Source of the DNA: Bacteroidota bacterium
GTDB lineage: Bacteria; Bacteroidota; Bacteroidia; B-17B0; Aurantibacillaceae
Length of the DNA: 60,104 nt
Assembly: GCA_025363015.1 (NCBI GenBank)
Contig: JANYEQ010000052.1
Location: 1 to 60,104, forward strand
Reading direction: 5' to 3'
The position numbers and the translations under genes are program-made. Below the pieces are notes generated by a model. The model was not told where the DNA came from. It was given only the letters and a program-made list of their open reading frames with translations, and did not search any database. How positions within the stretch are numbered: position 1 is the stretch's first letter; every line of letters begins with the position of its first letter. Shown piece after piece: positions 2,343 through 7,981 of the stretch.

Positions 2343-3332
2343 TTAATTTACAACAATTTTTTTTCTTAGGTTATTAATTTTATCAATAACAAAATAAATT
2401 CCTGGTGTTAAATTTTCGATTTTGATACCGTTATTAGCATTAATATTTTTCTCTATTATAATTTGCCCCAGCGTGTTTACAATTTTAATTTGCATACTTT
2501 CTTTACCCACTATTGTAAAACTGCCACTATTTGGATTTGGATAAATATCTACCTGTATTTGATTTAATAAAACCCCGTTAATATTATTTACTATATCATT
2601 GCACCTACCGTTACCCATAAATAATTGCTGTATTTCAGAAATATTTAATATTCTATTCCAAATTCCTATTTCATCTATTGACCCATCAAAATAATGGGGA
2701 ATAAAGTAAGGTATTCTACCGAAATTTACCGACCAATTATTAGAAGTATTAATTGGAGCATTTGAATTGTGGGTACTTAAAACAGTTGAAAGTAAAACTG
2801 CATCTTGGTATACTTGTACTGACGTAAAATCTATACCTACATTATATTGATAGACATAATGATGCCAGTTATTATCATTTACCGGAGAGGGAGATGAGTA
2901 TGTAATTGCACAATCAGAACCTATAATTGTAACCCCTGTGTTAGCGTAATTAAAAGCACATTCCCATCTTACACCATAGTTAGGATTTGATTGTTCGTCT
3001 CCCCAACTTACACCACACATAGTGCTGTTAGAATTAGTTGTCCTTGCCCAAAATGATACCGCTCTTGGATTATTTCCCAATACACCTGTCATTGTAGTGG
3101 AGATGAAATCGGAAGTACCATTGAATTGATATGAGTTTGCAGGAATGTTAAATCTATCAGTCGTTAAAATGGCGCCATTAACTGTACCATTATTATTGTT
3201 TCCGCTTACATCATTTGCATTACCACAAAATGGCCAAAAGCCTTTTAATCCATTCGTTGGTACATAGCTCGGTAATTGACTATAACCCATTAAAGTAATA
3301 GACATAAACATTAAACTAAATAATTTTTTCAT
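2343..3332 (-). CDS. secreted LamG/concanavalin-A-like domain protein with T9SS tail
   Basis: The 329-residue protein has a signal peptide (1-19, ending MGYSQ), a LamG_3/concanavalin-like jelly-roll at about 25-238 (GLKGFWPF near the start, the core WHHYVYQY, and the closing strand FDGSIDEIGIWNR), and a T9SS type A tail from about 261 (VDIYPNPNSGSF ... GIYFVIDK ... KKIVVN). LamG domains bind glycans or proteins; no catalytic residues are apparent, so a surface lectin or adhesin role is inferred. It is divergent from a sensor kinase whose extracytoplasmic domain is also LamG, and the 164-bp gap between them holds a LytTR-like double repeat. It is therefore a likely target of that two-component system. 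Confidence 0.88.
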   Translation of the reverse strand: MKKLFSLMFMSITLMGYSQLPSYVPTNGLKGFWPFCGNANDVSGNNNNGTVNGAILTTDRFNIPANSYQFNGTSDFISTTMTGVLGNNPRAVSFWARTTNSNSTMCGVSWGDEQSNPNYGVRWECAFNYANTGVTIIGSDCAITYSSPSPVNDNNWHHYVYQYNVGIDFTSVQVYQDAVLLSTVLSTHNSNAPINTSNNWSVNFGRIPYFIPHYFDGSIDEIGIWNRILNISEIQQLFMGNGRCNDIVNNINGVLLNQIQVDIYPNPNSGSFTIVGKESMQIKIVNTLGQIIIEKNINANNGIKIENLTPGIYFVIDKINNLRKKIVVN

Positions 3333-3351: not shown

Positions 3352-3359
3352 CAAACATA
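3352..3359 (-). promoter_or_regulatory. candidate -7 box of the secreted LamG gene
   Basis: On the minus strand this reads TATGTTTG, a full match to TAnnTTTG. Transcription would start near 3345, giving a leader of roughly 13 nt to the ATG at 3332. The double repeat at 3389-3418 lies about 30 bp upstream. Confidence 0.4.
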
Positions 3360-3388
3360 ATACATTGTTTTTTAATTATTCGTGTCAT

Positions 3389-3418
3389 TTCACAGAAAGT
3401 GCTTTTGAGTTCACAGAA
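3389..3418. promoter_or_regulatory. candidate LytTR operator: TTCACAGAA, 12-bp spacer, TTCACAGAA
   Basis: The nonamer TTCACAGAA occurs exactly at 3389-3397 and again at 3410-3418. The similarity continues downstream (AAGTGC versus ATGTAC). LytTR regulators such as AgrA are known to bind two roughly 9-bp direct repeats separated by 12-13 bp, on one face of the helix, just upstream of the promoter. The gene for a LytTR regulator is the second gene downstream, and TAnnTTTG boxes lie on both sides at 3352-3359 (minus) and 3442-3449 (plus), so one operator could serve both directions. The geometry is seen directly; the binding protein is inferred. Confidence 0.6.
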
Positions 3419-3441
3419 TGTACGTTTCAATTTATATCGTG

Positions 3442-3449
3442 TATATTTG
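3442..3449 (+). promoter_or_regulatory. candidate -7 box of the LamG kinase / LytTR operon
   Basis: TATATTTG matches TAnnTTTG and is followed by C. It lies 23 bp after the second operator repeat and about 48 bp before the TTG start at 3497. No clear -33 element is present, as expected for a promoter that depends on an activator. Confidence 0.45.
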
Positions 3450-3496: not shown

Positions 3497-4993
3497 TTGA
3501 ATTTATTGATTAAATATTTTCTTTTTTTATTTAGCATCCAGTGCTCAATAGCACAAATGGATACAAATCTTGTGTTAAAATTTCATTTTGATGATTACGA
3601 GTCTTCTTTATCTAATGATAATCTTATCAGAAAAGTAGGAGTATCATCTTCTTCCGATCGCTTTGGAAATCAGAATGCAGCCTGTTATTTTCAAGGTAAT
3701 ACCCAAAGTTATGTAAATTTGGGTACATCGCATAAATTAAAACCAAAAAAAGGCACTATTAGTTTGTGGTTTCGTTTAGATGAGGTTGTTTTTAGTGGAC
3801 AAGGATATACTCATAATGTAATTATTTTAACTAAATCTCATGTTGGAAATGATTTTTTTGAAGGTTACATGATAGACTACGACTACCAGGGGAAACGAAT
3901 CATTGGTGCGGTGACACAATCGTCATTAAATCAACTTTCTATTCGTAGCACAGACACTTTGAATATTGGTAAGTGGTACCATAGTGTACTAACATTCGAC
4001 GATAACTATTTATGTTTATATGTAAATGGTGTTTTACAAAATAAACTTATAAAAAAATTTCCTAATTTTTTTTTGGAGACAGACTCCGTAATGCTTGGAA
4101 ATTCGGCAAATTTAAAAAATTTACGATTTTTCAATGGGGCAATTGATGATGTAGAAATTTATCATCGAGTTTTAAATGAAAAAGAAATTTTAAAATTATA
4201 TAACGCTTCTAACCCTAATCGTAATAGCGTTTTTATGCATTGGATATTGTTAATCTTAATAATCATTATCTTCATAATAATTACGATATTTTTTATAAAA
4301 ATTAGAATAAGAAATATTCTTAAAAAGAAAGATGAAAAAAATCAAATCCTACTTCACTCACTTGAACAAGAAATAAAAATGCTTCAAGCGCAAATGGATC
4401 CACACTTTATATTTAATTCACTAAATACAATTTTACAATTTATATTAACAAAAGAAAATGAGAAGGCAGAACTTTATCTGACAAAATTTTCTAAACTTAT
4501 ACGTAAAATTATAGAGAGCAATATTAACGAACAAATAAGTTTAAAAGATGAATTATATATTTTACAGAATTATATAGATATAGAGTCAATTCGTTTTGAT
4601 AAGATTATTACACCATCGATAGAGATAGATGAAGATATTGATACGGGTTTTATTTTTATTCCTCACATGATGATTCAGCCTTTCGTAGAAAATGCTATTT
4701 GGCATGGATTTCGCTTAAAAGAAGGGGAACGAAAACTAAATTTAAGCTTTAAAAAACAAGACAAAAACACTTTGTGTGTTACTGTTGAAGATAACGGAAT
4801 AGGCAGGCATAATGAACTTAAAAACAAAAAACGAGAGGGTCGATCTTTAGCTATTAATTTTATTGAGCAACGTTTGCAGTTAATGAATAAAAAATATAAT
4901 AATTTTTATAAATTAATAATTATTGATAAAGAAAAAAATGCCGGTACTATTGTAAAAATAACCATACCAATAATTGAAAAAACAAATGAGTAA
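3497..4993 (+). CDS. LytS/YehU-type sensor histidine kinase with extracytoplasmic LamG domain
   Basis: The start is TTG, directly after an in-frame TAG at 3494, so no longer version exists. The order is signal-like segment 1-20; LamG_3 domain about 21-238 (KGTISLWF, KWYHSVLTF, FFNGAIDDVEIYHRVL); one membrane helix about 247-270; a short coiled coil; a His_kinase (PF06580) dimerisation motif QMDPHFIFNSL with the phospho-accepting His303; and an ATPase domain with N-box PFVENAIWHG and G-box EDNGIG at about 390-490. A lectin-like domain as the sensor suggests detection of a glycan or surface protein. The gene overlaps the LytTR regulator by 8 nt, so the two are co-translated partners. The LamG sensor is unusual; kinase identity is secure. 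Confidence 0.92.
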   Translation: MNLLIKYFLFLFSIQCSIAQMDTNLVLKFHFDDYESSLSNDNLIRKVGVSSSSDRFGNQNAACYFQGNTQSYVNLGTSHKLKPKKGTISLWFRLDEVVFSGQGYTHNVIILTKSHVGNDFFEGYMIDYDYQGKRIIGAVTQSSLNQLSIRSTDTLNIGKWYHSVLTFDDNYLCLYVNGVLQNKLIKKFPNFFLETDSVMLGNSANLKNLRFFNGAIDDVEIYHRVLNEKEILKLYNASNPNRNSVFMHWILLILIIIIFIIITIFFIKIRIRNILKKKDEKNQILLHSLEQEIKMLQAQMDPHFIFNSLNTILQFILTKENEKAELYLTKFSKLIRKIIESNINEQISLKDELYILQNYIDIESIRFDKIITPSIEIDEDIDTGFIFIPHMMIQPFVENAIWHGFRLKEGERKLNLSFKKQDKNTLCVTVEDNGIGRHNELKNKKREGRSLAINFIEQRLQLMNKKYNNFYKLIIIDKEKNAGTIVKITIPIIEKTNE

Positions 4994-5693
4994 AATAATT
5001 ATAATTGATGATGAATCATCAGGCGTTAACATTTTAAAACTAATGATAGAACGTTTACAAATGAATTTAAACATTGTTGCAACAACTACATCTTCCGAAA
5101 AAGGGATTGAACTTGTTAATTTTCATAAACCAGATATTTTGTTTTTAGATGTTCAAATGCCAAAGTACTCAGGCTTTGAACTTTTAGAAAAAATAAATTT
5201 TAAAGATTTTAAATTGGTATTTACTACAGCTCACCCTCAACACGCAATAAAAGCTATTAAACTTAGAGCTTTTGATTATCTTCTAAAACCAATTGATAAA
5301 GTAGAATTAAAAACCTGTATAGAACATATATTGGACTCTGAACCTAAAACTATTAACCAATCTTTACGAAATGTTCTTGAGATAGCTGTAAGTGATGGCA
5401 TTTTAATGATAAAAAAAGATTTAATAATTAGACTTGAAGCTGAGGGCAGTTATACCTTTTTATACATGAAAGACGGATCTAGGCACGCAGTATCAAAAAA
5501 CATAAAACAATTTGAAAATATATTAGACCCACGTAGTTTTTATCGATGTCATAATTCGCACATAATAAATTTAAATGAAATTACAAAATTTATAATTTCT
5601 GACGGCTATTATACTTTAATGAGTAACGGTGAAAAAGTAAATGTTACAAGGAAAAGTAAAGATGATTTAATAGTGAGATTAAAAACACTTTAA
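4986..5693 (+). CDS. LytTR-family response regulator
   Basis: The ATG at 4986 lies inside the last codons of the kinase gene; a TTG at 4974 is an alternative giving four more residues. The receiver domain (1-115) has the acidic pair D8/D9, phospho-acceptor D55 in LFLDVQMP, T80/T81 and K101 in LLKPID. The C-terminal LytTR DNA-binding domain spans about 135-233 (RLEAEGSYTFLYM, FYRCHNSHIINL). LytTR domains bind paired direct repeats as dimers. The repeat at 3389-3418 upstream of its own operon is the obvious candidate site, which implies autoregulation and control of the divergent LamG gene. The fold assignment is firm; the regulon is inferred. Confidence 0.93.
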   Translation: MSKIIIIDDESSGVNILKLMIERLQMNLNIVATTTSSEKGIELVNFHKPDILFLDVQMPKYSGFELLEKINFKDFKLVFTTAHPQHAIKAIKLRAFDYLLKPIDKVELKTCIEHILDSEPKTINQSLRNVLEIAVSDGILMIKKDLIIRLEAEGSYTFLYMKDGSRHAVSKNIKQFENILDPRSFYRCHNSHIINLNEITKFIISDGYYTLMSNGEKVNVTRKSKDDLIVRLKTL

Positions 5694-5819
5694 AACCAAC
5701 AACTTATTATACAACAATAATTCGTTCATTAAAAATTTGTATAATCTTGCTATTTCTTCAATGTCTTTTTTTTGTACTTTCTCAAAAAGTATATTTACTC
5801 TTTATTACGTTACTCTGTT

Positions 5820-6245
5820 GGGAATGGGCGTGTTGAAAAAAGAGTGTGTAAAGTATTTACAGATTTGTCTCATGTTGAGAATAAGGAAAGATGGACGAAA
5901 CTAAAATGTATTGTAGTGCTTGAATCAACACGTTATCTAAAATCGACACAACAAGAACAAAAACAAACCCGTTTCTATATAAGCAGTGCTAAGCCCAACG
6001 CAAAAGTATTACAACAAATTATCAGAGACCATTGGGCGGTAGAAAACAATTTGCACTAGGTACTTGATGTAGCCTTTAACGAAGACATAAACACAAATGA
6101 AAATGCAGTTCAAAATTTTTTCGCTTTAAACCGAATAGCCTTGAATTTAGTAACGAATGAGAAATCTAAAAAAAGAAATGTGAAAGGCAAAAGACTCGAT
6201 GCTGGATAGAATAACGACTACATAATCAAAATACTAAAAAATTAA
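5820..6245 (+). pseudogene. ISAs1-type (H-repeat) transposase remnant, 5'-truncated, with two in-frame stops
   Basis: The frame reads GNGRVEKRVCKVF ... RFYISSAKPNAKVL ... IRDHWAVENNLH-stop-VLDVAFNED ... KRLDAG-stop-NNDYIIKILKN, which is the C-terminal half of ISAs1/H-repeat transposases, including the ENxLHWxLDV block around the last catalytic acidic residue. Both internal TAG codons (6057-6059 and 6207-6209) fall where the family has Trp, so TGG became TAG twice. The N-terminal half and any terminal inverted repeats are missing. A longer frame begins at 5772, but its first residues are not transposase-like. The element is dead and can no longer transpose. Confidence 0.8.
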
Positions 6246-7321: not shown

Positions 7322-7981
7322 TTGAAATATTTTTTAAAAAATAATGCTCTTATACTTTTAATTTACATTGCTGTAATTTTTACATCTATTTATTTTTTAT
7401 TAAGTTATGATAAATCAACTATTCATATTTATATTAATCAAATAGTTGGTAATAAAATTATTGATACTTTCTTTTTTTATATTACTTATTTGGGTGATGG
7501 AACTGTGGCTCCAATTTTAGTAGTATTAATTTTAGTTTATAATATAAGGTTAGGCATTTACACAGCTGTTTCGGTAATTTTATCCACTTTAACATCTACA
7601 CTTTTAAAATTTTGTTTTTATGACGAAATTATGCGCCCCGCTTTTGTTTTTAAATGGTACAACCACAGCCCCATAAAATATGTAGTGGGAGAGCATATGC
7701 ACATTCACAATAGTTTTCCTAGTGGCCACTCAACGCAAGTATTTGCTATTTTTATGTGCTTAGTTTTTTTTTCTAATAATAATTCTATAAAACTTTTATT
7801 TTTTTTATTGGCATTATTAACCGCCTTTAGTCGCACCTATTTATCGCAACACTGGTTGGTAGATATTATTGTTGGCAGTATTATTGGTACAAGTTTTAGT
7901 TTGCTGTTTTATTATATATTTATTTATAAAAATAAATTAGGCAAACTAAATAAACCATTATTAAAAAATTTAAATTATTAG
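7322..7981 (+). CDS. PAP2-family membrane phosphatase
   Basis: This 219-residue polytopic protein carries the lipid phosphatase signature: PSGHS at 133-137, and SR at 170-171 with His177 and Asp181 (SRTYLSQHWLVD). The first motif (KX6RP) is not clear. PAP2 enzymes dephosphorylate undecaprenyl diphosphate, phosphatidate or lipid A-type substrates at the periplasmic face; the substrate here is unknown. The start is TTG abutting the mazG stop. Its own TAG (7979-7981) overlaps the probable start of the next gene, a GT39-like glycosyltransferase, so it plausibly recycles or modifies that enzyme's polyprenyl carrier. Confidence 0.85.
   Translation: MKYFLKNNALILLIYIAVIFTSIYFLLSYDKSTIHIYINQIVGNKIIDTFFFYITYLGDGTVAPILVVLILVYNIRLGIYTAVSVILSTLTSTLLKFCFYDEIMRPAFVFKWYNHSPIKYVVGEHMHIHNSFPSGHSTQVFAIFMCLVFFSNNNSIKLLFFLLALLTAFSRTYLSQHWLVDIIVGSIIGTSFSLLFYYIFIYKNKLGKLNKPLLKNLNY

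Follow-up and report, generated by a model that had tools for sequence, protein, structure and literature searches.

The gap between two divergent genes in the window, i.e., the whole stretch of 60,104 nucleotides of Bacteroidota DNA analyzed here, holds a short direct repeat, and this raises the question whether the repeat belongs to an operator read by the LytTR regulator encoded next to it and, if so, which of the two genes such an operator would serve.

Gene Arrangement and the Nonamer Repeat

ORF coordinates and Pfam matches agree with the gene order given in the original prediction, namely a gap of 164 bp between a LamG kinase/LytTR operon that starts at 3497 on the plus strand and the gene of a secreted T9SS protein (2343-3332, minus strand) (Table 1). 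The HATPase domain (PF02518) of the kinase (3497-4993) scores just under the cut-off (22.4 vs. 26.4). A regulator with a LytTR domain (4974-5693) is thus encoded near the repeats, as is typical of direct-repeat LytTR operators. Downstream of the regulator lies a short ORF (5772-6059), which resembles a transposase remnant and for which the Pfam search gave no match.

Table 1. Features of the intergenic gap and of the genes on either side (positions refer to the window).
Feature	Position	Strand	Basis and remarks
Predicted target gene: LamG (PF13385) and T9SS sorting tail (Por_Secre_tail, PF18962)	2343..3332	-	ORF and Pfam
-7 box of the divergent gene, TATGTTTG, perfect TAnnTTTG	3352..3359 (first base 3359)	-	26 bp from unit 1, an offset recurrent elsewhere
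Three-unit direct-repeat array, proposed LytTR operator, 21-bp step	3386..3435	+	Aligned units and 16-column models
Unit 1, CATTTCAC	3386..3393	+	In-register alignment; nearest to the -7 box of the divergent gene
Copies of TTCACAGAA noted in the original prediction	3389..3397 and 3410..3418	+	Exact sequence search
Unit 2, GAGTTCAC	3407..3414	+	In-register alignment; leave-one-out 29-mer match of 15.7 bits begins at 3407
Unit 3, CAATTTAT	3428..3435	+	In-register alignment; 29-mer search
Candidate -7 box on the kinase side, TATATTTG, perfect TAnnTTTG	3442..3449	+	6 bp from unit 3; offset not recurrent
Sensor kinase: LamG (PF13385), His_kinase (PF06580) and HATPase (PF02518)	3497..4993	+	ORF and Pfam; signal peptide by eye
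Response regulator with LytTR domain (Response_reg and LytTR, 2.8e-15)	4974..5693	+	ORF from TTG 4974; ATG at 4986

The nonamer TTCACAGAA is present twice at 3389-3418, exactly with the 12-bp spacer and the 21-nt step that had been predicted, and the pair has the form of direct repeats about two helical turns apart (10-13 bp spacer, step 21). A genome-wide search for the exact spaced repeat, TTCACAGAA-N12-TTCACAGAA, found the window copy to be the sole one both in the window and in the 3.33-Mb source genome, and one further place (C53:22302-22331) emerged in that genome when up to three mismatches were allowed. Dinucleotide shuffling of the gap produces an exact repeat of at least nine nucleotides at step 21 in 0.385% of cases and at any of the steps 20-23 in 1.5%, and the 60-kb window contains ten exact repeats of at least nine at step 21. 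In view of these rates and of the ten such repeats, the nonamer repeat by itself is suggestive only, and it is the comparative evidence that carries the case. With at most two mismatches the nonamer pair was found at 27 places in 18 of the 40 genomes of the genus (source genome included) vs. 11 for a backward control; among them the window's own place is the sole one at a LamG-kinase operon, and these matches were judged to be background rather than a conserved site.

A Three-Unit Array Conserved in Register

LamG-kinases with 33-52% identity over nearly the full length are present in other genomes of the same genus. The sensor part was detected in 11 of 395 genomes in a class-wide search (E ≤1e-20), a kinase search across a wider set of genome contigs gave no match, and the regulator search in the wider genome contigs revealed at least 80 loci (at least 562 relatives), 78 of the listed loci being at 43% identity or below. 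In total, 37 kinase loci were collected, two of them from outside the genus, while G045:C5, two further G041 copies and the split G012 copies were left out. A three-unit pattern was derived by eye from upstream sequences and then subjected to in-register alignment.

Eight operons (those of the window, L098, L099, L012, L102, L103, L017, and L100) feature three units with the consensus yAGTTTRT at an exact step of 21 bp, the units being 8 bp and the spacers 13 bp long. As far as the geometry of a LytTR operator is concerned, the original prediction is therefore supported by in-register conservation at related operons, but it had described two repeats where there are actually three units, the third having been overlooked because its letters differ from TTCACAGAA. 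A similar distinction applies to the proposed search for the repeat at related operons and genomes: the exact nonamer pair is not conserved, whereas yAGTTTRT at the 21-bp step is. Relative to the aligned unit, TTCACAGAA corresponds to the core TTTRTAGAA, which has C for T at two positions in units 1 and 2 of the window (TTCAC instead of TTTRT), and each TTCACAGAA is at the same time a near-palindrome (TTCnnnGAA). The spacer is conserved in part, several arrays sharing, as judged by eye, the unit TAGTTTGTrGAATGnnGGTTT. An extra T-rich match at 3365 (6/8) was taken as chance. The array G042_C2 (L150, about 5925-6008) comprises four units at step 21, with no ORF within reach on its unit-1 side.

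Leave-one-out analysis with 8-column half-sites gave a score peak at step 21 in all eight operons, and in seven of them the score was equaled by none of 300 shuffles, the window being the exception (23/300). The triple score of the window in this analysis, 7.6, falls inside the range of 28 loci from outside the group (up to 12.6), and with the 8-column model built from the seven other arrays position 3386 is absent from the top five of the 60 kb. With a 16-column model of the seven other kinase-linked arrays, the width of which was picked after the aligned flanks had been seen, 3386 comes out above every other place on either strand of the 60 kb, with 20.9 bits against 11.8 for the runner-up. 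The same place ranks first with a 16-column model of 12 other arrays (21.6 bits, next 9.3), from which the window was excluded, yet five of these 12 arrays had been found via R1, a model that included the window (see below). The score of 20.9 was attained by one of 200 column-permuted models, and the best place fell within 3380-3394 in one. The arrays at G042:C61, G022:C522, and G000:C108, which belong to the set of 16 arrays introduced below, were excluded from the half-site models. Comparison of the 16-column with the 8-column results indicates that the core of the window array has diverged and that its kinship with the others shows when the flanks are considered along with the core.

A mere chance repeat in AT-rich DNA would fit the post hoc nature of the observation, its rate of 0.4-1.5% in shuffled gaps, the ten step-21 repeats of at least nine in the window and the fact that the 8-column model does not rank 3386. 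We consider this extremely improbable, since 16-column models free of the window pick 3386 out of 60 kb and since a perfect -7 box lies at the distance that recurs in other arrays (0.6% by chance).

Distribution of Arrays and Regulator Clades

The regulator tree contains 35 regulators of the 37 loci; it lacks L099, where the frame is broken in the assembly, and L108, where no regulator was found. Three clades are apparent: clade A with eight rows (support 95/93, window included), clade B with 14 (88/93) and clade C with nine (97/95). Outside the clades, L115, L022, and L045 are located beside clade A, and L046 stands apart. L099 was placed with clade A by kinase and regulator similarity, outside the tree; in its assembly, a frame change near the start interrupts the regulator beside the kinase. 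Seven of the eight clade-A rows of the tree possess the array. Conservation at orthologous operons extends to eight operons in register, the core of the window having diverged, with the exception of L018, a ninth clade-A kinase (G022) that has no array beside it, the arrays of G022 being located elsewhere.

R1, a sequence-only array model with the window included, was searched in 40 genomes of the genus. Matches at E ≤1e-7 were confined to eight genomes, all with a clade-A-type regulator (seven of them had contributed to R1, G022 had not), and the best value in the remaining 32 was 3.7e-4. The source genome has one strong array copy. The R1 matches G000:C53, G054:C614, G023:C38, and G053:C58 were dropped, their units being not threefold-aligned or inside ORFs. 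Regulators of the clade-A type occur in ten of the 40 genomes, i.e., the eight R1-positive ones, G053 and G051, where the call rests on at least 54% identity to the L102 regulator for nine genomes and on the tree for the source genome; G017 (51%) and G001 (49%) fall outside clade A in the tree, and G051 and G053 were assigned by identity, outside the tree. Strong arrays are thus present in eight of the ten genomes with a clade-A-type regulator and in none of the 30 without. In G053, a weak array (half-sites 23.5 bits; R1 E 0.045) precedes the regulator by about 140 bp; here the regulator lies beyond unit 3, there is no box at 25-27 bp, and no kinase adjoins within the stretch examined. In G051 (L190), the clade-A-type regulator has no array alongside.

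These data bear on two alternatives. Firstly, the array could be a dispersed intergenic tandem repeat, i.e., a minisatellite or the trace of a mobile element, with no regulator involved. The partly conserved spacer and the four units in G042_C2 would be in line with such an origin, as would the seeming position of some arrays between convergent genes, an argument that loses weight in two of these cases, where a small ORF starts past unit 1 (at +86 and +132, respectively). It is highly unlikely, though, that a repeat of this kind would have strong copies in eight of ten genomes with the regulator clade and in none of 30 without, a single strong copy in the source genome, and a recurring polarity and distance to a -7 box. 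Secondly, the operator could belong to another regulator, either one of the seven other LytTR proteins encoded in the source genome or a non-LytTR activator. In view of these seven proteins the binding partner was assigned by linkage only, and the near-palindrome in TTCACAGAA might be readable by other families. On the other hand, the array type tracks the regulator clade, with a different motif at a different fixed distance in clade B, and the weak array in G053 precedes a clade-A-type regulator even with no kinase adjoining in the stretch examined, which makes a foreign regulator distinctly unlikely.

Polarity and Predicted Target Genes

If the array is read by the neighboring regulator, its orientation relative to promoters should point to the gene concerned. 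In Flavobacterium psychrophilum, promoters of the primary sigma factor carry TAnnTTTG as their -7 box, which spans -12 to -5 (PMC9723704). We scanned outward from both ends of 16 arrays, eight of them kinase-linked and eight chosen from the R1 matches, many weaker R1 matches lying outside this sample, for TAnnTTTG-like boxes with at most one mismatch. A box is located 25-27 bp past unit 1 in eight of the 16 arrays (resampling mean 0.84) and is not found at this distance in the other eight. The same holds for five of the eight kinase-linked arrays, six of 12 strict ones and nine of 18 when two later arrays are included, and neither for the full set nor for the subsets was the count matched in any of 5000 resamplings each. 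Addition of the four dropped matches to the two later arrays resulted in 9/22, a count that was again matched in none of 5000 resamplings. No preferred box offset was detected on the unit-3 side of the 16 arrays (best 3/16, equaled in 81% of resamplings). Within the window, the perfect box on the divergent side lies at the common distance, 26 bp (chance 0.6%), and the start codon of the divergent gene (2343-3332) is 53 bp from the array. The array is therefore positioned just upstream of the promoter on the divergent side and not on the kinase side.

In 14 of the 16 arrays the first ORF past unit 1 begins at +52 to +260, a count without shuffle control; G022_C330 and G042_C2 have no ORF within reach on that side. 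The 14 ORFs encode five proteins with a T9SS tail (three LamG, one SprB-repeat, one CBM4_9), three kinases and six others. LamG/T9SS proteins are found in the window and in L099, a LamG/PKD/T9SS protein in L100, a SprB-repeat/CHU_C protein in L098 and a CBM4_9 (just under the cut-off)/T9SS protein at G041_2229. In L102, L103, and L017, whose arrays have the reverse orientation, the ORF is the kinase itself. The remaining six are a 399-aa protein without Pfam match (L012), a BNR/Sortilin-type lipoprotein-like protein (G022_C522), a response regulator (G042_C61), a DUF1003 protein (G000_C108), a 77-aa lipoprotein-like protein and an 82-aa protein. At L149 (about 7354-7470), a GC-rich hairpin with a T run follows the array, and the 77-aa lipoprotein-like ORF lies on the other side, +86 from unit 1.

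According to the original prediction, full TAnnTTTG boxes flank the repeat on both sides and the regulator drives both genes. The first part is correct, both boxes being perfect (3359 minus, 3442 plus), a configuration seen in 3.2% of resampled gaps. The second part is not sustained, as the recurrent box distance exists on the unit-1 side only, that is, toward the divergent LamG/T9SS gene. Activation of the kinase operon together with the secreted gene could be argued from the two perfect boxes and from the kinase promoter being on the unit-1 side in L102, L103, and L017, and since the array is turned round in these three, autoregulation is indeed expected by geometry in part of the clade. For the window, such a dual role is unlikely: the unit-3 side is without a preferred box offset, the kinase-side box and the end of unit 3 are 6 bp apart, and by chance one strand of the AT-rich gap should contain 0.17-0.23 perfect boxes.

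Candidate Operator Forms of the Other Clades

The motif TATAAGTGGTnnGGTTTaTTGAGTG is present upstream of clade-B kinases. Across the 37 loci, at least 17 of 23 positions match at 12 upstream sites, all of them at clade-B kinases; seven of these 12 are followed, at exactly 40 bp in the direction of the kinase, by a TAnn(A/C)TTG box (maximum of four at any offset in 1000 resamplings). TATAAGTGGTnnGGTTTaTTGAGTG was found upstream of the kinases at L013, L041, L105, L106 (two kinases), L107, and L110, and shorter or weaker forms were noted by eye at L016, L019, and L104. Upstream of the clade-C kinases at L111, L112, and L113, inspection by eye suggests a third operator form, CCACTTAT/AAGTGG.

A gene whose product starts with KIIIGTRGS, presumably hemC-like, lies downstream of the clade-B kinase/regulator pair at L016, L019, L021, L041, and L042. 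In G022 (L148), it is a clade-A array, not a kinase/regulator pair, that precedes the hemC-like gene.

Comparison With Known LytTR Systems

RcoM-1 is a one-component regulator, and the sites of AgrA show two-turn spacing. The canonical LytTR site consists of a pair of 9-bp repeats with 10-13 bp spacing, and three-repeat operators are described for RcoM-1, with 8-bp direct repeats spaced by 12-13 bp and read by the LytTR domain, and for CoxC, a single-component CO sensor that requires all three repeats and represses, its repeats overlapping the -35 region (PMC11347149). The arrays reported here share the three direct repeats and the spacer length with these operators, as well as a LytTR regulator, the binding of which is predicted. 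They differ in sequence (consensus TTCNNGCA/TTNNNGCN there, yAGTTTRT here and TTCACAGAA in the window), in the presence of a receiver domain and an adjacent kinase, in Bacteroidota, instead of a single-component sensor-regulator, and in the recurrent location upstream of the target promoter instead of across the -35 region (PMC11347149).

AgrA contacts DNA through R198, N201, and S202 of its FFRCHNS motif (PMC4227749), and RCHNS is also found in the LytTR domain of the regulator from the window. A PDB search with the whole regulator yielded mostly receiver domains among the best 60 of 141 matches, and the LytTR profile matched 3d6w and AgrA. The AgrA sites at agr P2/P3 are likewise intergenic direct repeats upstream of promoters, but they have two repeats per site, another sequence and a location upstream of both P2 and P3 (PMC4227749), whereas three units are present in all eight kinase-linked arrays. 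HdrR/BrsR, first described in Streptococcus mutans, resemble the present case in having repeats, mostly separated by 12 bp, close to and upstream of the promoter of the adjacent operon and in a repeat sequence that diverges while the geometry is kept; they differ by repeat pairs, by a membrane inhibitor in place of a kinase and by autoactivation (PMC6193735). Three-repeat LytTR operators are already known; the novelty lies in lineage, regulator type, sequence, and output. A literature search covering mainly titles and abstract openings, as well as text from two papers (PMC5395568, PMC10057207), revealed neither a LytTR operator from Bacteroidota nor a case in which T9SS cargo is under LytTR control.

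Proposed Mechanism and Implications

Taking gene order, array conservation and polarity together, 3386-3435 is probably the operator from which the LytTR regulator encoded at 4986-5693 activates the divergent gene for the secreted LamG/T9SS protein. When the LamG domain of the kinase receives a signal outside the cell, the regulator would become phosphorylated, and its subunits would then occupy the three half-sites on one helix face every 21 bp. Unit 1 would set the subunits just upstream of the divergent promoter core (-7 box 3359-3352), and the bound subunits may recruit RNA polymerase for transcription of 2343-3332. On the kinase side, use of the 3442 box would put the array across roughly -68 to -19 of the promoter, and as CoxC represses from repeats overlapping -35, we expect either no effect there or repression (negative feedback), not activation. 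The LamG parts of the kinase and the secreted protein share just a short alignable stretch (11/26 identical, E 2e-5), and a common ligand is therefore speculation.

A broader reading, which we put forward tentatively and as possible rather than probable, is that LamG-kinase/LytTR pairs radiated with private operator codes, i.e., three AGTTTRT units 26 bp from the promoter in clade A and a single TATAAGTGGTnnGGTTTaTTGAGTG exactly 40 bp from the promoter in clade B. Sensor and secreted target in clade A could then both be LamG proteins, the former switching on the latter, possibly in a surface circuit with a shared ligand or with detection of its own product. In the window, where two of the three units have TTCAC in place of TTTRT, operator and regulator may have changed together. 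The two operator classes that track regulator clades would make this family a natural system for testing changes of LytTR specificity. For a Bacteroidota LytTR two-component family, the analysis offers a prediction, made from sequence, of operator, polarity and target gene, the predicted output being secreted type IX cargo.
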